Positions 10,586 to 23,544 of a stretch of DNA of 34,775 bases are shown here, piece after piece; the first letter of the stretch is position 1; each line of letters opens with the position of its first letter. Source of the DNA: Tateyamaria pelophila. Lineage in GTDB: Bacteria; Pseudomonadota; Alphaproteobacteria; Rhodobacterales; Rhodobacteraceae. The notes below the pieces were generated by a model that was given only the letters and a program-made list of their open reading frames with translations, was not told the origin of the DNA and ran no database searches. The position numbers were made by a program, and so were the translations under genes. The stretch is taken from assembly GCF_019966495.1 (NCBI RefSeq), contig NZ_JAIMIA010000051.1, positions 1-34,775 of the forward strand, written 5' to 3'.

Positions 10586-11593
10586 TCACTGCGCGATACG
10601 GTTGAGAACACTCTCGCGCGAAACGATGCCGATCGCGGTGTTGTTTTCGACAACTTGCAGGATGGGGGCGTCGTGCAATTCAAGCAAGATGTCCTTCACC
10701 GGAAGTTCCACGTCGATCCGCGGGCCTTCACCAGCCCCTTCCACCATGACATCGCGGGCCGTCAGAACGCCAAGCGGGTTCATATGTGCGACGAAATCAG
10801 CGACATAAGGATTGATCGGATTGGTGAAAATATCACGCGGGGAGCCACATTGTACGATCCGGCCGCCCTCCATGATGGCAATGCGATTTCCGATCTTGAA
10901 CGCTTCGTCCAGGTCATGGCTGACGAAAATGATCGTGCGGTTCCGCTTGGTCTGCAATTCCAGCAATTCATCCTGAAGCCGCGCGCGGATGAGCGGATCA
11001 AGGGCGGAAAACGGCTCGTCCATGAGCAAAATCGGCGCGTCGGTGGCAAAGGCACGCGCCAGCCCGACACGCTGCTGCATGCCCCCGGACAACTCTCCCA
11101 CGAGGGCATCCGCCCGATCGGCCAATCCGACCAGCGCCAGTTCCTCGTCTACGCGGGCATGGCGGTCCTTGACCGACATGCCGCCCAATTCCAAACCAAG
11201 GCCGACATTGTCGCGCACCGTGCGCCATGGCAGCAAGCCGAATTGTTGAAATACCATCGCGACCTGCTTCAACCGGATCGCGCGGAGCGTCCGTGCATTG
11301 GCGGTGGTCACTGAATCCATGCCCGAAGGCCCGGCCACACGCACATCGCCGCGCACCACCTGGTTGAGACCATTGACGGAGCGCAGCAAGGTCGATTTGC
11401 CAGAACCAGACAGGCCCATCAGGACGAGTATCTCGCCTTCCTCGACGGTCAGCGAGCAGTTATGCACGCCAAGGACCTGCCCTGTCTCCGCGTTGATCTC
11501 CGCCCGCTCCTTGCCCGCGTCCATCATCGGCAAAGCCTGTTCAGGATGATCCCCGAACACGATGGAAACATTGTCAAAAATCACGGCACTCAT
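10586..11593 (-). CDS. choV: Choline ABC transporter ATP-binding protein
   Basis: A 335-residue ATPase of the osmoprotectant/choline importer class (ProV/OpuAA-like) that powers ChoW. Walker A is GLSGSGKST (about 60-68), the signature is LSGGMQQRVGLARA, and Walker B is ILLMDEPFSALDP. An N-terminal extension (DHPEQALPMMDAGKERAEI) and the C-terminal regulatory tail (about 270-335) fit the choline-specific subgroup. The ATG overlaps the choW stop by 4 nt. It is the last gene of choX-choW-choV. Confidence 0.92.
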   Translation of the reverse strand: MSAVIFDNVSIVFGDHPEQALPMMDAGKERAEINAETGQVLGVHNCSLTVEEGEILVLMGLSGSGKSTLLRSVNGLNQVVRGDVRVAGPSGMDSVTTANARTLRAIRLKQVAMVFQQFGLLPWRTVRDNVGLGLELGGMSVKDRHARVDEELALVGLADRADALVGELSGGMQQRVGLARAFATDAPILLMDEPFSALDPLIRARLQDELLELQTKRNRTIIFVSHDLDEAFKIGNRIAIMEGGRIVQCGSPRDIFTNPINPYVADFVAHMNPLGVLTARDVMVEGAGEGPRIDVELPVKDILLELHDAPILQVVENNTAIGIVSRESVLNRIAQ

Positions 11594-12441
11594 GACCGGT
11601 TCACCCGCAGCATGCGATCCAGAATGATCGCGACGACAACGATCACCAACCCGCTTTCAAAGCCCAGCCCCTTGTCGACACGGTTGAGCGCGCTGACGAC
11701 CGGTTTGCCAAGCCCGTTGGCCCCGACCAGCGCCGAGATGACGACCATGGACAATGACAGCATGATGGTCTGGTTGAGACCCGCCATGATCTGCGGGAAC
11801 GCCGATGGCAATTCCACTTTCCACAAAAGCTGCCGCCCCGTAGCTCCAAAGGACTGTGCCGCTTCGATCAGCGGTTTTGGCGTGTTGGATACCCCCAGAT
11901 GGGTCAGTCGGATTGGTGCCGGCAAAACGAAGATGACCGTCGCGACCAGCCCCGGAACCTCGCCCAGACCAAAAAAAACAATGGCTGGAATGAGATAAAC
12001 GAAAGTCGGCAAGGTCTGCATGATATCGAGCACGGGCAGGACAAAAGAATAGAGCCGCGGCCTGTGCGCCATTGCAATCCCGATTGGCACCCCGATGGAC
12101 ATGCACAGCAGACACGCGGACAGCACGAGGGTCAGCGTCTCTATCGTTTCTTCCCAATAGCCCTGATTGAGGATGAAGAGAAAGCCGAGGCCCACGAAAG
12201 CGCAGACTTTCCAGTTGCGCTGTAGCACCCACGCGAACCCGACGAAAATCACGATCAGGATCAGGGCCGGAATGGTCTCAAACGTCCATAAAATCGCCCC
12301 GGTCATCGCTTCCAGTATTGCGGCCAGACCGTCAAAGAACCAGATCATGTGGGTTTCGAGCCAGTCGAACGCAGCCTCGGCTGCGTCGTCCACCGGGATC
12401 TTGTAATCAGCAAGCCAGTCGAGGCTCAAAAACGAGTCCAT
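11590..12441 (-). CDS. choW: Choline ABC transporter permease
   Basis: A 283-residue inner-membrane permease of the ProW/OpuAB type. The N-terminus starts with the amphipathic LSLDWLADYKIPVDDAAEAA segment and then has about six membrane helices. The typical binding-protein-dependent transport loop with VPIGIAMAHRP and EAAQSFGATGRQLLWKVELP (EAA loop contacting the ATPase) is present. It lies between choX and choV in the standard order. Substrate assignment follows from the adjacent ChoX ligand-site match. Confidence 0.92.
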   Translation of the reverse strand: MDSFLSLDWLADYKIPVDDAAEAAFDWLETHMIWFFDGLAAILEAMTGAILWTFETIPALILIVIFVGFAWVLQRNWKVCAFVGLGFLFILNQGYWEETIETLTLVLSACLLCMSIGVPIGIAMAHRPRLYSFVLPVLDIMQTLPTFVYLIPAIVFFGLGEVPGLVATVIFVLPAPIRLTHLGVSNTPKPLIEAAQSFGATGRQLLWKVELPSAFPQIMAGLNQTIMLSLSMVVISALVGANGLGKPVVSALNRVDKGLGFESGLVIVVVAIILDRMLRVNRS

Positions 12442-12471
12442 GAGGTCAAACCTTTAGCCGCTCTGGTATTG

Positions 12472-12495
12472 GGGCAGGCCAGCGCTGGCCTGCCC
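12472..12495 (-). terminator. Intercistronic hairpin between choX and choW
   Basis: A perfect palindrome: GGGCAGGCC (12472-12480), central AGCGCT, then GGCCTGCCC (12487-12495). It sits in the 61-nt gap between the choX stop and the choW start and has no T-run. Such hairpins commonly stabilise the upstream mRNA or dampen read-through, so that binding protein exceeds permease. Confidence 0.65.
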
Positions 12496-12502
12496 GGATG
12501 TC

Positions 12503-13426
12503 TTAAAGGCCGAGGGCCGACCTGGCCGCTGCCATCGCATCGCCGCCGTCCTGGGTGGTCACACCGTCCAGCCAAACCTCCAGAACGCCGGGGTTGGCCG
12601 TCAGCCATGCGGTCGCGGCTTCGTCCGGGTCCGTACCGTCGTTCAGAATGGCCCCCATGATCTCGTTCTCCATCGCGAGCGAGAATTCGAGGTTTTTCAG
12701 GAACTGCCCGACATTCGGGCAGGCTTCGGTATAGCCTGCGGTCACGTTTGTCGCCACTTCGGCGCCGCCAAGGTTGGGTCCGAACCAATCGTCGCCGCCT
12801 TCAAGATAGGTCATATCGAAATTCGCGTTCATCGGATGCGGCTCCCATCCAAGGAAAATGATAGGCGCGTCGCGCTTGGACTGACGTTCCACTTGCGCCA
12901 GCATCCCCTGCTCCGAGCTTTCGACAAGGTCGAACCCTTTGAGGCCAAACGCATCCGCGTCGATCATATCGAGGATCAGGCGGTTGCCATCATTGCCGGA
13001 CTCGATGCCGTAAATCTCGCCATCCAGCGCCTCCGCATTCGCAGCGATCGCCTCAAAACTGTCGATCCCGAGGGCCGCACCGGCCGCATTGGTGGCCAGC
13101 GTATATTTTGCGCCCGTCAGGTTGACGCGGACGGTTTCGACCGTGCCCGCTTCCAGATAGGGCGCAATATCGGCTTCCATCGTGGGCATCCAGTTGCCCA
13201 GGAACACATCCACATCGCCCTTGGCGAGCGAGATATAGGTCACCGGTACAGACAATGTCTCGATCTCGGTTTCATAGCCCAGCGCTTGCAACAGGACGGT
13301 TGTCGCGGCGGTGGTGGCCGTGATGTCGGTCCAGCCCACATCCGAGAACGTGACTGTGCTGCAATCTGCGAGTGCCGGACTGGCGGCGATGATTGCCAGA
13401 GCTGAAAGGCCGTTGCGTATGTTCAT
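12503..13426 (-). CDS. choX: Choline-binding periplasmic protein
   Basis: A 307-residue type II periplasmic binding protein with a signal peptide (1-20, cleavage after SPALA). Compared with my recollection of the Sinorhizobium meliloti ChoX site, every recalled ligand residue is found at a constant offset of 11. The aromatic box is W32, W79, Y108 and W194, with D34 and N145 as polar contacts (segments VGWTDI, LGNWMP, GAKYTL, LGWEPHP, ESGNDG). This supports choline (possibly acetylcholine) rather than glycine betaine as ligand. A clear AGGGGAG ribosome site precedes the start. Imported choline would feed betaine synthesis or catabolism encoded elsewhere. Confidence 0.94.
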   Translation of the reverse strand: MNIRNGLSALAIIAASPALADCSTVTFSDVGWTDITATTAATTVLLQALGYETEIETLSVPVTYISLAKGDVDVFLGNWMPTMEADIAPYLEAGTVETVRVNLTGAKYTLATNAAGAALGIDSFEAIAANAEALDGEIYGIESGNDGNRLILDMIDADAFGLKGFDLVESSEQGMLAQVERQSKRDAPIIFLGWEPHPMNANFDMTYLEGGDDWFGPNLGGAEVATNVTAGYTEACPNVGQFLKNLEFSLAMENEIMGAILNDGTDPDEAATAWLTANPGVLEVWLDGVTTQDGGDAMAAARSALGL

Positions 13427-17396: not shown

Positions 17397-18125
17397 TCAG
17401 TGGTTCAGAATTTTCGACAGGAAGTCCTTGGCCCGTTCGCTCACAGGGTTGTCGAAGAATTCAGTGGTTGGTCTGTCTTCGATGATTGCACCCTCGTCCA
17501 TGAAGATGACCCGGTCAGCTACCTTGCGCGCAAATCCCATCTCGTGCGTCACGACCATCATCGTCATCCCTTCCTGGGCCAGTTCAACCATGACATCGAG
17601 CACCTCCTTGATCATTTCAGGGTCAAGCGCCGAGGTAGGTTCGTCAAAGAGCATGGCGATCGGATCCATCGCGAGCGACCTTGCAATCGCAATGCGCTGC
17701 TGCTGACCGCCCGACAATTGGCTGGGATACTTCTTGACATGATCGGCCATCCCGACCCGTGCGAGCAGTTTTTCCGCCCGCGCGACCGCTTCACTCCGGC
17801 TTCGGCCCAAGACCTTTTCTTGTGCAAGACACAGGTTTTCGAGCACCGACATATGCGGGTAAAGTTCAAAGTGCTGAAAGACCATGCCGATGCGTGACCT
17901 GAGGGCGGTCAGGTTTGCGTGTTTGGCCGTGACCTCGTCCCCATCGACGGTGATCCTGCCCTCCTGCACCGGTTCCAGACCGTTGACGCATTTGATCAGC
18001 GTCGATTTACCCGATCCCGAAGGGCCGCACACCACAACGACTTCACCCTTTTTGACGCTGGTGGTGCAGTCCGTCAGGACGCGGAAATCACTGTACCACT
18101 TGCTGATGTTCTCAATGCTGATCAT
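17397..18125 (-). CDS. Amino-acid ABC transporter ATP-binding protein (GltL/GlnQ type)
   Basis: A 242-residue ATPase of the polar amino-acid importer family. Walker A is GPSGSGKST, the signature is [15 protein letters not shown], Walker B is [13 protein letters not shown], and the switch histidine lies in VVTHEMGFA. It is the distal gene of the four-gene importer, and its start overlaps the preceding permease stop by 4 nt. The family closely matches glutamate/aspartate GltL, but the ATPase does not define the substrate. Confidence 0.94.
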
Positions 18126-18778
18126 GTGCTCATCCGGGATTTGAGGCTTCTGACCAGCATGGAACCGGAGAAGCAGATTACGAAGTAGACGACAGCGGCG
18201 AAAAGATACATTTCGACCAGCCTGCCTTCGGTTCGCGCAACGATAGAAGAGGCGGTCATGAAGTCCCGCAAGGACACGACGAAGACCAGCGATGTATCCT
18301 GAAACAGAATGATGCCCTGCGTGACAAGAATTGGGATCATGTTACGGAACGCCTGCGGCAGAACCACGTAGCGCTGGATTTGCCAGTAATTCAGACCTGT
18401 GGATTGTCCGGCATGCACCTGTCCCTGTTTGACGCTTTGAATACCGGCGCGCATGATCTCGGAGTAATAGGCTGCCTCGAAGAGGACAAAGGCGATGAGC
18501 GCGGAATAGAAACTGCCGATCGGCCGCCCGATCGCCAGAGGGACCAGGAAGAAGAACCAGAAGATCACAAGGATCAGGGGCACCGAGCGGATCAGGTTGA
18601 CGTAAGTTGCGGCAATCAACGACAGCGGAAGGATACCTGACAGCCGCGCCAAGGCCAGAAGCGTGCCCAGAACGATGCCGCCGATGATCGACAGGAAGGT
18701 CAGCCACAGGCTGAGTTGCAAGCCCTGCCACAAGAAAGGAAGCGATGACCAGATGACGTTGAAATCAAAGTCTGCCAT
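18122..18778 (-). CDS. Amino-acid ABC transporter permease (GltK/HisM type)
   Basis: A 218-residue inner-membrane permease of the HisMQ/GltK class. It has about five membrane helices with the conserved [20 protein letters not shown] segment and the ATPase-contact loop around [20 protein letters not shown]. It pairs with the permease encoded just upstream to form the heterodimeric channel. Only 3 nt separate the two genes. Confidence 0.93.
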
Positions 18779-18781
18779 GGA

Positions 18782-19501
18782 TCAGCCCTCCTTTCCGACA
18801 TAGCCCGGGATGCGGGTGTATTTTTCGAGGAGCTGCATCAAGACCGTCGCGACAAGTGCGATGCAGACATAGATGACCGTCGCCGCGGTAAAGGCCTCAA
18901 ACCCCTGAAAGGTGTATTCGGCAATCTGCTGGCTTTGTGCGGTGAGTTCCAGAAGGCCGATGGTCAGGGCGAGCGAGGAATTCTTGAAAACTGTCAGGAA
19001 TTCGGAGGTCAGGGGGGGGACGATCATGCGAAACGAGATCGGCAAAAGGACGTAACGATAGGTCTGGCCAACGCTGAGCCCATGGGCGGTTGCGGCTGCG
19101 GTCAGGCCCGGCGGAACGGTTTCGATGCCGGCGCGCACCTGTTCGGCGATGCGTGACGCGGTATAAAGCCCGAGGGCTACGACGGCGGTGACAAATTCGG
19201 GGTTTGGCATGTCGCGCTTCATCCAGCGGCCCCAGTCGTCGGGCAGCATTTCAGGCACCGCAAAATACCAGATGAACATTTGCACCAGCAGGGGCACGTT
19301 CCGGAAAATCTCGACATAGGTGGCACAAATGCCGCGAATGACCTTGTTCGGCACCGTCTTTCCGACGCCAACCAGCGCGCCGATGACAATGGCGATGCAC
19401 CATGCGCTCAAGGCCACCGACACGGTCCACCCAAAACCGCTGATCAGCCAGTTGAGGTATTGCTCCTCAAACAGGATGCTCCAATTCCAGTTATATTCCA
19501 T
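18782..19501 (-). CDS. Amino-acid ABC transporter permease (GltJ type)
   Basis: A 239-residue inner-membrane permease. The N-terminus MEYNWNWSILFEEQYLNWLISGFGWT is typical of GltJ-like subunits. It contains the family segments YVEIFRNVPLLVQMFIWYF and the EAA-type loop EQVRAGIETVPPGLTAAATAHGLS. About five helices are predicted. It follows the binding-protein gene after a 60-nt gap that holds a strong hairpin. Confidence 0.93.
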   Translation of the reverse strand: MEYNWNWSILFEEQYLNWLISGFGWTVSVALSAWCIAIVIGALVGVGKTVPNKVIRGICATYVEIFRNVPLLVQMFIWYFAVPEMLPDDWGRWMKRDMPNPEFVTAVVALGLYTASRIAEQVRAGIETVPPGLTAAATAHGLSVGQTYRYVLLPISFRMIVPPLTSEFLTVFKNSSLALTIGLLELTAQSQQIAEYTFQGFEAFTAATVIYVCIALVATVLMQLLEKYTRIPGYVGKEG

Positions 19502-19561: not shown

Positions 19562-20428
19562 TTATTCTGGCAAGGCGCCCAACTGGAACGCCGCAAGCAG
19601 GAGCGGATCAGCAGGCACGCCAAGCGGGTCGAACCACTGGGCGTAGATCGCGTTGATCTCGCCCGAGCGGAACACTTCGGCGAGCGCTTTCTTTCCAACC
19701 AGTTCGAAGGCGCTGTCGTCCCGGCGCACCATCAGCGCGTAAGGGTCAAAGGACAGAAAGTCGCCGACCACCACGAAATCTTCGGGCGATTTGGACTTTG
19801 TCACGGCACCATGGAGCAGGATGTGGTCCGAGGTATAGGCATCCACACGGTCCGTTTCCAACGAGAGCATGCCTTCGGCGATATCGCGAACGGGCAGTAT
19901 CTTGACGTCAAGGCCAGCGGCTTCGACAGCAGCCAGCAAGGCGCGCTCGTTCGTTGTCCCCTGGGCAACCGCAACGACCTTGCCGTCCAGATCGGCAACC
20001 GAATTGATCCCCGAGTCCTTGCGGGTCAGGATTTTGGTACCGGTCACGAAAGTGACAGGGAGGTATTCCACCTGCTGCTGACGCGTCAGGTTGTTGGTGG
20101 TCGAGCCGCATTCCAGATCGATTGTGCCGTTCGCCATCAGCGCGATGCGTGTCTTTGGATTGACCGGCACATATCTGACCGTCAGTTCCTGATCGAGTTC
20201 TTCTGCCACGGCGTCCACGATCTTCATGCACAGGTCGATGGAATATCCGACGGGCTGCTGGTTCTCATCCAGATATGCGAAGGGCACGGAGCTTTCGCGG
20301 TGGCCAATCACGATTTCGCCGCTGCTGGCGATTTTGGCCAAAGTACCGCCATGCGCTTCGGCAAGCGCAACCGGCGCCGAAAAGCCCAATGCGACGATCG
20401 CAGTTAAAAAAGTTTTCTTGAGTTGCAT
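19562..20428 (-). CDS. Glutamate/aspartate-type ABC transporter substrate-binding protein
   Basis: A 288-residue periplasmic protein with a signal peptide (1-23, ending PVALAEA). It belongs to the family 3 solute-binding proteins: GEIVIGHRESSVPFAYLD, VGYSIDLCMKIVDAV, then LECGSTTNNLTRQQQVEY, which is typical of GltI-like proteins. The acidic amino-acid class is consistent with glutamate or aspartate. Its linkage to a regulator, a cysteate-lyase-like enzyme and a racemase makes cysteate or another aspartate analogue a candidate. A 299-nt leader carries a LysR-type operator copy (20574-20611). Confidence 0.9.
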   Translation of the reverse strand: MQLKKTFLTAIVALGFSAPVALAEAHGGTLAKIASSGEIVIGHRESSVPFAYLDENQQPVGYSIDLCMKIVDAVAEELDQELTVRYVPVNPKTRIALMANGTIDLECGSTTNNLTRQQQVEYLPVTFVTGTKILTRKDSGINSVADLDGKVVAVAQGTTNERALLAAVEAAGLDVKILPVRDIAEGMLSLETDRVDAYTSDHILLHGAVTKSKSPEDFVVVGDFLSFDPYALMVRRDDSAFELVGKKALAEVFRSGEINAIYAQWFDPLGVPADPLLLAAFQLGALPE

Positions 20429-20573
20429 TCATATTCTCCATTGTTGGTTAGACGGGTCGACATTTGCCTGTTTCTTTCTTGCCGTCGTTATCATGGCCAA
20501 AGCGCGGGACCGCGCCAGTGCTCAACCCGGAATTTGCGTATTTTAGACATTATCCTCGCCTATGGCATGCGTC

Positions 20574-20611
20574 TAATGCAAATTTTCGCCTGCAAAATGC
20601 GCAAATAGCAA
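20574..20611 (-). promoter_or_regulatory. LysR-type operator copy upstream of the importer operon
   Basis: Read on the minus strand, the 38-bp element is TTGC-N4-TGCGCA-N15-TTTGCATTA. It ends 145 nt before the importer binding-protein start. The same three blocks with identical spacing and the same orientation relative to the target gene occur at 21698-21735. The two copies match at 24 of 38 positions by hand count. Binding by the neighbouring LysR protein is inferred. Confidence 0.65.
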
Positions 20612-20727
20612 GTTTCACACAATTTTTCAGATGCGGCACTCCAATTGAATCGTCCCAAAAGCCGCTCCATTCCGCCGCTTTCCGCACCACCTGCCGGTCG
20701 TGCATCGATGGCGGGCTATCCGGTCGG

Positions 20728-21678
20728 CTAGAGGTCTGGCGCGGGGAGAGTGAGCAATGCGTCCGCGTGCCCGCGGGGCTTGAGGTGCTCGGGCAAGGCG
20801 ATTTGGGACAGCAGGTCGCGCCAGACGGCATGAGATTGCGACCCTCCGTGATCCGAGAGGCGAAACGCCTTGATGTCGAGCGGCTGGACCGGCAAATCCG
20901 CCTCCAGAGAGATCAGCGTGCCTTGCGTCAAAGCCTCGATGACCAGAGAGCGGGGCAACCACGCGATGCCGATGCCGCTGAGGGCGAATTCGTAGGCAGC
21001 AAGGGTCAGAGCGGTTTCCGCCTTGGTAATGATCTCCAGTTCCCTGTCCAGTCGTGGCGCGATATGCCGGTCAAAGACCTGCCCAAGAAAGACATCTGAC
21101 GGGTAGCTGATGGCCGGAAACCGGGAAGATGGAATACTGTCCCGAAGCGACGGGGCACAGACTGGAATCAGGATATCGTGCCCAAGGGCCAATGTTTCAA
21201 AGGCCCCTTCCAGAAAGGGTGTGTGCGTGTCGTGAACCGTGTACATCACCACAAAATCAACTTCTGCCGATAACAGGAGCATCAGGCATTCCTCCTGATT
21301 GCTCGACCTCACCTTGACCGGCACAATGCCCTGCGCGGCCAACGCCCGCACAATCCAGGGAGACAATGTCGTCGTGATCGCATGCTGGCAGGCAAAGCTC
21401 AGAGTGCTGCCGGTCTGGCTGTTTGCGGTTTTGAGTTTTTGTCTGACCTGACGCAACCGCATGCTCAGCGCGCGCAATTCCGGCGCAAGCGCCTCGACAC
21501 CCGCCAGCAGCGTGACGGGCTTGCGCCGCCGGTCGAACAGCTCTGCGCCAATGCTTTCTTCGATCAGGCGCACACGCCGGGTGAAAGCGGATTGCGTCAG
21601 CGACCGTTTTTCCGCCGCCCGCGCGAGCGAGCCGGTTTCAAGCACCGCCAATATGTCGTCGATCCATTCCAGACGCAT
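20728..21678 (-). CDS. LysR-family transcriptional regulator (CuyR-like candidate)
   Basis: A 316-residue LysR-type regulator. The winged helix-turn-helix covers about 1-60 (MRLEWIDDILAVLETGSLARAAEKRSLTQSAFTRRV region), followed by a linker helix and a type II binding-protein-like effector domain from about 90. I took ATG 21678, where family homology begins; an upstream in-frame start at 21726 would run into the divergent promoter. It sits between the importer operon and the divergent lyase-racemase pair, the position expected for a local activator. An operator copy lies 19 bp upstream of its own start, suggesting autoregulation. The effector is unknown; a lyase substrate is likely. Confidence 0.9.
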   Translation of the reverse strand: MRLEWIDDILAVLETGSLARAAEKRSLTQSAFTRRVRLIEESIGAELFDRRRKPVTLLAGVEALAPELRALSMRLRQVRQKLKTANSQTGSTLSFACQHAITTTLSPWIVRALAAQGIVPVKVRSSNQEECLMLLLSAEVDFVVMYTVHDTHTPFLEGAFETLALGHDILIPVCAPSLRDSIPSSRFPAISYPSDVFLGQVFDRHIAPRLDRELEIITKAETALTLAAYEFALSGIGIAWLPRSLVIEALTQGTLISLEADLPVQPLDIKAFRLSDHGGSQSHAVWRDLLSQIALPEHLKPRGHADALLTLPAPDL

Positions 21679-21697
21679 GAGTGCGACCCCAGAAAAC

Positions 21698-21735
21698 TTG
21701 CAGATTGCGCAACTTATGCAGGGCACTTTGCATTA
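21698..21735 (+). promoter_or_regulatory. LysR-type operator in the divergent lyase/regulator promoter
   Basis: The element is TTGC-N4-TGCGCA-N15-TTTGCATTA, with a TTGCGCAA palindrome at 21705-21712. It lies in the 114-bp divergent region, 57 nt upstream of the lyase start and 19 nt upstream of the regulator start. It is a structural twin of 20574-20611. Position and half-site spacing suit a LysR recognition plus activation site. Confidence 0.7.
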
Positions 21736-21792
21736 TCAATCGCAGCTTTCACAGGGTAAACATCGGATGAAGCAAATTAAGGATTTGACGCC

Positions 21793-22806
21793 ATGCATCT
21801 TGCCCGTTTTCCACGCCGTTTTCTCGCGCACCTGCCCACACCGCTGGAGCGCCTTGATCGCCTGACCAAAGAACTGGGCGGACCGGAAATCTGGATCAAA
21901 CGGGATGACTGCACCGGCATGTCCACCGGGGGCAATAAAACGCGCAAGCTGGAATTCCTAATGGCCGAAGCGGAGCTGCAAGGCGCCGATATGGTCATCA
22001 CGCAAGGCGCCACTCAATCCAACCACGCGCGCCAGACAGCGGCATTTGCGGCCAAGATGGGCATGCAATGTCACATCGTGCTTGAAGACCGCACCGCATC
22101 GAACAACGCAAACTACAACAATAACGGCAACGTGCTGCTGGACCATCTGCACGGTGCGACAACCGAAAAACGACCCGGCGGGGGGGACTTCAACGCCCTG
22201 ATCGAGGACATGGCGGCCGAGATGCGGGCGGATGGCAAGAAAGTCTATGCGATTCCGGGTGGTGGATCGAATGCCACCGGCGCATTGGGCTACGTCAACT
22301 GTGCCTTCGAGATGCTGACTCAGGTGAACAACAGCGGGCTGAAGATCGATCACATGGTCACGGCGACAGGCAGTGCGGGCACGCAGGCTGGTTTGATCGT
22401 GGGTCTCAAGGCGATGAACGCCCAGATCCCGCTTTTGGGTATCGGCGTGCGCGCACCCAAGGCAAAGCAGGAGGAAAACGTCTTCAATCTTGCGTGCAAA
22501 ACAGCGGAGAAACTGGGCTGTCCCGGTGTTGTCGAGCGGCACGATGTGGTGGCTAATACCGATTATGTCGGCGAAGGATACGGCATTCCGACCGAAAGTG
22601 GCCTCGAAGCAATCCGCATGTTTGCCGAACTTGAGGCCATCCTGCTGGACCCGGTCTACTCCGCCAAAGGGGCCGCCGGGTTCATAGATCTGATCCGAAA
22701 AGGTCACTTCAAGAAAGGCGAGCGCGTTGTCTTTCTGCACACGGGCGGTTCCGTGGCATTGTTCGGATATGATTCAGCATTCGATTTTTCCGACCGCTGG
22801 ACCTGA
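21793..22806 (+). CDS. cuyA: PLP lyase, L-cysteate sulfo-lyase / D-cysteine desulfhydrase family
   Basis: A 337-residue fold-type II PLP enzyme of the ACC deaminase/D-cysteine desulfhydrase family. K49 in [12 protein letters not shown] should bind [18 protein letters not shown] holds the active-site serine, and [11 protein letters not shown] closes the protein. L-cysteate sulfo-lyase (CuyA, cysteate to pyruvate, ammonia and sulfite), described from Roseobacter-group bacteria and Paracoccus, belongs here. The N-terminus MHLARFPRR and the divergent LysR gene fit CuyA. No sulfite exporter (CuyZ) is adjacent, so D-cysteine or another beta-substituted alanine remains possible. AAGGA precedes the ATG. 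The racemase follows after 12 nt. The gene symbol is tentative. Confidence 0.75.
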
Positions 22807-22818
22807 TCGGCCCGGGCC

Positions 22819-23544
22819 ATGAGCATCCCCGCAGGCAAGGTTCGCCGGATCGGCATCCTCGGAGGCATGGGCGTCGAGGCGACCATTGAGCTGATGAAGC
22901 GGGTGCATGCGGCGACGGATGCGGAGGGGGATCAGGACCATGTTCCCATGTTTGTGGACATGAACCCGCAAGTGCCCTCTCGCATCCGCCACGTGATTGA
23001 AAAAGACGGCCCCGATCCCGGTCCGGTTCTTGCCGAAATGGCGGCAAGGTTGGAACAGGCCGGGGCCGATGTTTTAGCGATGCCCTGCAATACGGCGCAT
23101 TTATATGCACCACAGATTGAAAAAAACGTCGGGATCGCGTTGCTGAACATGCCGAAACTTGCGTGTGAACAGGCGGCGCAGGGTATGAAACAGGGCGCGG
23201 TCGTGGGTATTCTGGCCTCGCCTGCGACCAACAGCACAGGTCTTTTCAAGGATTTCCTGTCGGCGGGCGGTGTAAGGTCAATTTACCCTGAAAACGAAAC
23301 CAAAATTCTGGCGGCGATCCAAAGCATCAAGAAATCCGGGCCGCGCCAGACGGACATCGATTGCCTGAACAGCGAAGCCGCAGCACTGGTTCAACGCGGC
23401 GCGGAGCGGGTGATCATCGGCTGCTCCGAGTTTTCGCTGGTGAGTACGGAAATCGAGGCACCTGTTCCGATTCTTGACACGCTTGACGTCTTGGTGTCCT
23501 CGATCGTCGAATATTCCGGCGCGCGCATGAAATCGCCGAACTGA
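22819..23544 (+). CDS. Aspartate/glutamate-family racemase
   Basis: A 241-residue cofactor-independent racemase of the Asp/Glu/hydantoin superfamily, close to the YgeA/amino-acid racemase type (RRIGILGGMGVEATIELMKRV). The two catalytic cysteines are C90 in AMPCNTAH and C202 in IIGCSEFSL, so a two-base mechanism is intact. Being 12 nt behind the PLP lyase, it probably interconverts D and L forms so that one lyase can use both. If the lyase is CuyA, a cysteate racemase activity is the simple prediction. Aspartate or glutamate racemase remains possible. Confidence 0.85.
   Translation: MSIPAGKVRRIGILGGMGVEATIELMKRVHAATDAEGDQDHVPMFVDMNPQVPSRIRHVIEKDGPDPGPVLAEMAARLEQAGADVLAMPCNTAHLYAPQIEKNVGIALLNMPKLACEQAAQGMKQGAVVGILASPATNSTGLFKDFLSAGGVRSIYPENETKILAAIQSIKKSGPRQTDIDCLNSEAAALVQRGAERVIIGCSEFSLVSTEIEAPVPILDTLDVLVSSIVEYSGARMKSPN

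Follow-up and report, generated by a model that had tools for sequence, protein, structure and literature searches.

A predicted CuyR operator stands before both a cysteate lyase operon and an ABC importer in Tateyamaria pelophila

The locus described here lies in a window, meaning the whole stretch of 34,775 nucleotides that was analysed, from the alphaproteobacterium Tateyamaria pelophila. A cuyR-like gene for a LysR-type regulator (20728..21678, minus strand) sits between two predicted operators, with cuyA and cuyB downstream of the plus-strand copy and a four-gene importer downstream of the minus-strand copy. The regulator starts at an ATG at 21678, M1 and W5 of its MRLEW opening being invariant in 27 aligned sequences, and it carries the domains PF00126 (48.1 bits) and PF03466 (52.3 bits), both over their cut-offs; LysR families within the window were sought in a chosen set of ORFs. 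The description of this protein as CuyR-like is borne out, as it is a relative of the Ruegeria pomeroyi CuyR (54% identity), is divergent from cuyA and has the same operator, which places it in the CuyR group. The product of cuyA (21793..22806, plus strand) is a D-cysteate sulfo-lyase (NF052482, 549.4 bits against a cut-off of 450), and that of cuyB (22819..23544, plus strand) is a cysteate racemase (NF052483, 270.6 bits against a cut-off of 190). Published work describes CuyB as converting the L and D forms of cysteate into each other and CuyA as favouring D-cysteate (PMC11382572).

The importer is of the polar-amino-acid ABC type and is encoded entirely on the minus strand. Specifically, it consists of a substrate-binding protein (19562..20428), two permeases (18782..19501 and 18122..18778) and an ATPase (17397..18125). 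The binding protein finds its best family among glutamate/aspartate-binding proteins, under the cut-off, and fails the test for a GltI-type glutamate/aspartate importer (NF008063, 225.7 against a cut-off of 375). Both permeases pass the general domain TIGR01726 only, and for the ATPase no score exceeds the cut-off among the 25 NCBIfam models shown. The best structure match of the binding protein is 2ia4/2vha, titled putative periplasmic binding protein, which we take to be a glutamate/aspartate binder. Since none of the 19 listed genomes of the same genus (G001-G019) has a match to the window LysR at E 1e-40, the cuyR-cuyA-cuyB locus (20728-23544) looks accessory.

The initial annotation had proposed that one 38-bp operator, TTGC-N4-TGCGCA-N15-TTTGCATTA, flanks the regulator gene in two copies, and both are present without a mismatch, at 20574-20611 (minus strand) and 21698-21735 (plus strand). 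As had been claimed, three identical blocks totalling 19 bases recur at the same spacing, each copy faces its own target gene, and the LysR ATG lies 19 bases from the cuyA copy. The window holds no further copy at up to three mismatches (shuffle mean 0.04). Furthermore, the pattern is not frequent elsewhere: in the whole genome of 5,649,492 bases in 280 contigs, the same two copies are the only matches at up to three mismatches, and a reversed control pattern has none. The core of the proposed motif stands in both copies, but its edges were drawn slightly tight, as the conserved stretch covers 44 bp. The predicted CuyR operator of the cuyAB promoter accordingly spans 21694..21737 (plus strand), with a T-N11-A dyad at 21699-21711 and a half-site, TTTGCATTA, at 21727-21735, and that of the importer promoter spans 20572..20615 (minus strand), with its dyad at 20610-20598 and the same half-site, TTTGCATTA, at 20582-20574. 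Both dyads show T-N11-A, with imperfect self-complementarity that extends to 14 and 10 of 23 positions. The two copies agree in 24 of 38 columns, or in 28 of 44 over the longer site. Such agreement is only moderately unlikely, given that 43 of 2000 dinucleotide shuffles of both gaps reach 24/38 in any register and either orientation. Taken alone, the identity of the pair is modest evidence (p about 0.02), so that the comparison across genomes decides.

This comparison places the two copies well apart from the rest of the window. Because the alignment that delimited the 44 bp included the window's own site, scoring relied on a leave-out matrix of 24 sites, built without the own site and that of genome G074. 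With this matrix, the importer copy ranks first in the window (36.6 bits) and the cuyA copy second (31.5 bits), followed by scores of 15.3 and 13.1, which overlap the same two sites on the opposite strand, and then by 8.8. A second model, R1, comprises 64 sites before cuyA, the own cuyA site included, and no importer site. In the T. pelophila genome, where 150 of 1129 first-look candidates were scored, R1 finds the cuyA site at E 6.6e-5, the importer site at E 8.2e-5 and nothing else up to E 10. A chance pairing of the two copies is weakened by these leave-out tests and by the held-out loci described below.

The motif recurs in orthologous loci, as the operator proposal predicts. CuyA relatives provided 60 loci, drawn mostly from the upper end of the relative list plus G117, and in 26 of these a divergent LysR lies no more than 400 bp from cuyA. 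With the own site included, 26 of 27 sites measure 44 bases over the aligned stretch, and the remaining one (L048) has one extra base. Outside the training set, 69 of 72 loci score at least 20 bits, and the three misses (L175, L176 and L177) reach 8.8 to 15.0 bits; the 72 come from the best 80 of 223 in a regulator-alignment search, eight with sites already in training having been set aside, and some named ones are near kin of training genomes. The cuyR-cuyA gap of R. pomeroyi DSS-3, likewise outside the training set, scores 42.1 bits. By comparison, among 34 cuyA genes that lack the regulator within 400 bp, only 1 scores at least 20 bits. These counts indicate that the motif accompanies the regulator and not cuyA as such; the notion that it is part of cuyA itself is ruled out by the 33 regulator-less genes that stay below 20 bits. 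The one exception, at L071:9838, is a CuyR-like site of 22.9 bits before a cuyA without a neighbouring CuyR. Another cuyA without a neighbouring CuyR, at L099, has 15.2 bits, and a plasmid-borne cuyA accompanied by a LysR of like orientation (L113) shows no site of 10 bits.

The same data bear on whether the sites might be bound by some other regulator, such as the paralogous LysR that sits beside a TRAP transporter in related clusters. This paralog has a related 44-bp motif of its own, one instance of which scores 29.3 bits in Jannaschia helgolandensis. Yet the paralog's motif differs in consensus, the T. pelophila genome holds one match to the window CuyR at E 1e-40 (15 of 40 candidates scored), and the motif studied here goes with CuyR, which together make binding by another regulator exceedingly improbable.

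The proposal further tied the importer to the lyase regulon, and this link extends beyond T. pelophila, since an operator copy also stands before the orthologous importer in G074 (40.3 bits) and in J. helgolandensis (40.0 bits). In the latter genome, the importer lies behind a LysR gene, TRAP genes and a hydrolase gene, its operator is about 5 kb from the regulator, and the operator is still kept. The distance from importer site to start codon in the three genomes is 143, 147 and 148 bp. With R1, G074 yields the cuyA and importer sites plus one match at E 0.5, and J. helgolandensis yields the importer site first (1.1e-5), then the cuyA site (1.6e-4) and a TRAP-transporter promoter at E 0.02. 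Beyond its cuyA site at 2.2e-6, the R. pomeroyi genome G370 (strain SZCCDBG043) gives matches at E 1.08 and 6.39. A specific search there for another site at a transporter found none below E 1, so that this genome differs from the window in having no second operator detected. A wider scan covered 50 CuyR genomes out of the 80 named loci, many of these 50 having supplied sites to R1, and under its stricter filters 127 candidates were scored in each genome. A match at E 0.01 or below is present in all 50, and 46 have a single match. The remaining four contribute five extra matches, three of which overlap the main site on the opposite strand and two of which lie elsewhere (G383 and G418). All 30 best matches that were checked are located 53 to 72 bases before cuyA. 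With one match in 46 of 50 CuyR genomes and the 30 checked best matches all before cuyA, only certain lineages have the importer arm.

The promoters into which these operators are set offer a view of their arrangement. A set of 95 was compiled by taking, for each locus, the highest-scoring site of at least 25 bits, identical sequences being counted once and L064 and L071, where the best site is of the TRAP type, being left out beforehand. Of these promoters, 93 precede cuyA, and the two that do not (L136 and L179) have their top sites before importers. The T-N11-A dyad occurs in 94 of the 95, and columns 2 and 22 are complementary in 84, two counts that are partly circular in a set chosen by motif score. 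The consensus reads about TAANWTGCAA-N4-TGCAWNTTA, followed by a half-site of about AWTTCGCATTWG. Columns outside the operator are free of this circularity, and there 55 of the 95 promoters have TAnnnT at columns 64-69, as opposed to at most 3 at other shifts of 1 to 6; these columns are predicted to serve as a -10 box, since they behave as one would. For cuyA, the predicted box is TAAACA (21757..21762, plus strand), in which the final T is absent. For the importer, it is TAATGT in the same register (20547..20552, minus strand), which is weak by itself at 3.4 bits, a score reached by 0.012 of window positions; a consensus scan offers TAAAAT, ending at 20540, as an alternative importer -10.

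Further downstream, C, A, T and T at columns 80, 81, 84 and 85 occur jointly in 31 of 95 promoters, a number that never exceeds 6 when the register is shifted. In the window, these columns fall within a GCAAATT box that spans columns 79-85 of both promoters, at 21772..21778 (plus strand) before cuyA and at 20531..20537 (minus strand) before the importer. The cuyA copy abuts a presumed ribosome-binding site, AAGGA; the importer copy lies 102 bases ahead of the start codon and can for this reason hardly be ribosome-binding. Scored over columns 45-90 against a profile of 92 promoters, the window importer promoter reaches 11.7 bits, which 1.2e-4 of window positions attain, and judged by its letters it resembles the cuyA promoters beyond the operator. 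The register is weaker in the G074 importer promoter, whose 5.4 bits are reached by 8.9e-4 of window positions, and poor in that of J. helgolandensis, whose -2.5 bits are reached by 0.013 of them, and the L179 promoter is also a poor match beyond its operator (-1.3 bits).

These features help to judge whether the importer copy could have arisen by chance or be a non-functional relic of promoter duplication. The share of shuffles that equal the identity of the pair and the single match in 46 of 50 CuyR genomes would fit such an origin, but the copy is the top site of the window under a matrix from other genomes, it recurs before the same importer in two further genomes at nearly the same distance from the start codon, and the boxes downstream of it are common to both window promoters. 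An accidental or relic copy is thus very improbable.

The locus fits a known class, the LysR regulon. In the classical LysR layout, a T-N11-A recognition site lies near -65 and an activation site near -35. If transcription began near column 76, the dyad centre would fall at about -64 and the half-site at about -42 to -33. The window resembles classical LysR regulation in its T-N11-A dyad, its half-site over the presumed -35 region and its divergent genes, and differs from it in the operator consensus given above and in the GCAAATT-like box after the -10.

The available data are best explained by a model in which CuyR, acting through both operators, very probably activates cuyAB and a cysteate importer. 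Specifically, both copies would be operators of a single LysR-type regulator, the CuyR encoded between them. One CuyR dimer would occupy the T-N11-A dyad, centred at about -64, and a second would reach the half-site over the -35 region, at about -42 to -33. Upon binding of the inducer, most likely cysteate, contact with RNA polymerase would switch on cuyA-cuyB at one operator, and at the other it would switch on the four-gene ABC importer, which would bring cysteate in. CuyR probably also limits its own synthesis, because the 44-bp edge of the cuyA operator is 15 bases from the cuyR start codon. A minus-strand promoter-like pair at 21760-21732 (9 of 12 matches; chance expectation mean 0.8 in shuffles) would put the cuyR transcription start inside this operator. 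Since importer and cuyR point in the same direction, read-through from cuyR could also feed the importer.

That cysteate is what the importer carries is suggested by the company it keeps. Orthologs of the binding protein at E 1e-60 occur in 7 of 295 family genomes and in 4 of the 50 named CuyR genomes, and CuyA is found in 6 of the 7 importer-bearing family genomes as compared to 89 of 295 overall (own included). Among 13 importer loci, 8 lie beside a cuyA-type gene or under a CuyR operator. Three of them are under the operator (own, G074 and J. helgolandensis), and five follow a cuyA-type gene about 61-64% identical to the window cuyA (Phaeobacter pP92_a, G150, G255, G401 and, at a contig end, G234). 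Three of the importer-linked CuyA proteins were tested, those of Phaeobacter (a second copy), G150 and G401, and with 522-532 bits all exceed the CuyA cut-off of 450. This linkage of importer and cysteate lyase in two arrangements supports cysteate as the substrate, and the importer is a likely entry route for it. No intact cuyA-type gene was detected beside the other five of the 13 importer loci. Three of these (G403, G217 and G408) have only a LysR detected alongside, and G407 has a cuyA fragment before the importer. The importer-bearing G259 shows no CuyA at E 1e-80, has neither a cuyA-type gene nor a LysR beside the importer, and carries a CuyB-like gene about 7 kb away. A cuyA fragment precedes the importer at L250:8127-8360, in a Roseovarius MAG with a CuyR-cuyA locus elsewhere. 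Near the cuyA-importer operon, a double-length racemase with two CuyB-like halves occurs at L110:15704-17137 and at L252:16432-17775.

The substrate range could nevertheless be broader than cysteate, because the best family of the binding protein is the glutamate/aspartate one. This raises the question whether the sites are true CuyR operators in front of an importer that moves another acidic amino acid, such as aspartate or glutamate, and is merely co-induced, or that acts as a general scavenger. The under-cut-off family assignment, the structure match and G259, with its importer and no CuyA at the cut-off used, all point in this direction. On the other side stand the 8 of 13 importer loci tied to a cuyA-type gene or a CuyR operator, the cuyA fragment of G407 and the enrichment of CuyA among importer genomes, and another substrate is on balance unlikely.

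Against known systems, the locus shows both likeness and difference. R. pomeroyi DSS-3 carries cuyR-cuyA-cuyZ (SPOA0159-0157), in which cuyZ is named a sulfite exporter (PMC4334477). As in the window, LysR and cuyA are divergent there with the same operator in the gap, and CuyA is 87.9% identical, but cuyZ follows cuyA in DSS-3 and the racemase gene cuyB follows it in the window. R. pomeroyi also possesses a cysteate transporter shown by mutants, cuyTUVW (SPO3040-3043), which the same study describes as confined, or almost confined, to R. pomeroyi within its set of compared strains (PMC10130141). Like cuyTUVW, the window importer is a four-gene transporter assigned to cysteate, in its case from sequence; the best match of its binding protein in R. 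pomeroyi G370 is 32% identical. Phaeobacter pP92_a and others couple an orthologous importer to a CuyA (binding protein 82% identical in Phaeobacter). These loci differ in forming a single operon, with a CuyA of roughly 62% identity and a different LysR (about 31%), and in the cuyA-importer promoter of Phaeobacter no site reaches 10 bits under the matrix.

For CuyR, a regulator that already had a name, no published description of a DNA site was found in the openly licensed papers searched, and the main text of one regulon survey makes no mention of CuyR, cysteate, sulfonate or taurine (PMC5343134). Plankton compounds taken up and used by marine bacteria include cysteate (PMC10130141). A CuyR site that spans genera would allow cysteate regulons to be read from sequence, and it provides a function that can be put to the test for an importer whose sole label would otherwise be amino acid ABC transporter. 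A broader reading is possible and somewhat doubtful: the operator may form part of an 85-bp module, composed of dyad, -35 half-site, -10 and a GCAAATT-like box at about +4 to +10 that is possibly a third regulator contact, which may have been placed before unrelated importers, and the window importer may be a dedicated cysteate importer distinct from cuyTUVW. In this tentative reading, the importers would be of the amino-acid type in T. pelophila, G074 and J. helgolandensis and of the OpuAC type in L179.

Several minor observations complete the picture. In G411, a marine proteobacterial MAG (locus L179), the single match (34.2 bits) precedes not cuyA but an OpuAC-type ABC importer operon with a hydrolase gene (L179:12308-13418). 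The window also contains genes for an OpuAC-type binding protein and a permease (11590-13426), near which no strong CuyR site was found (best 6.0 bits). Relatives of cuyA furthermore reside on plasmids of Ruegeria, Phaeobacter, Sulfitobacter and others, a divergent LysR adjoining in 4 of the 5 plasmids viewed. Finally, the related but distinct 44-bp motif beside the paralogous LysR, about AACTATGCAAN5GAATAGTTTGATGAAATGTTCGAATTGGC, is seen at L065:11074, L114:9809, L136:9000 and others. It has 40 pattern matches, some in duplicate genomes and at least two of which (L144 and L185) are CuyR sites. In the loci annotated or scanned, it adjoins TRAP transporter genes and possibly marks another sulfonate uptake regulon.
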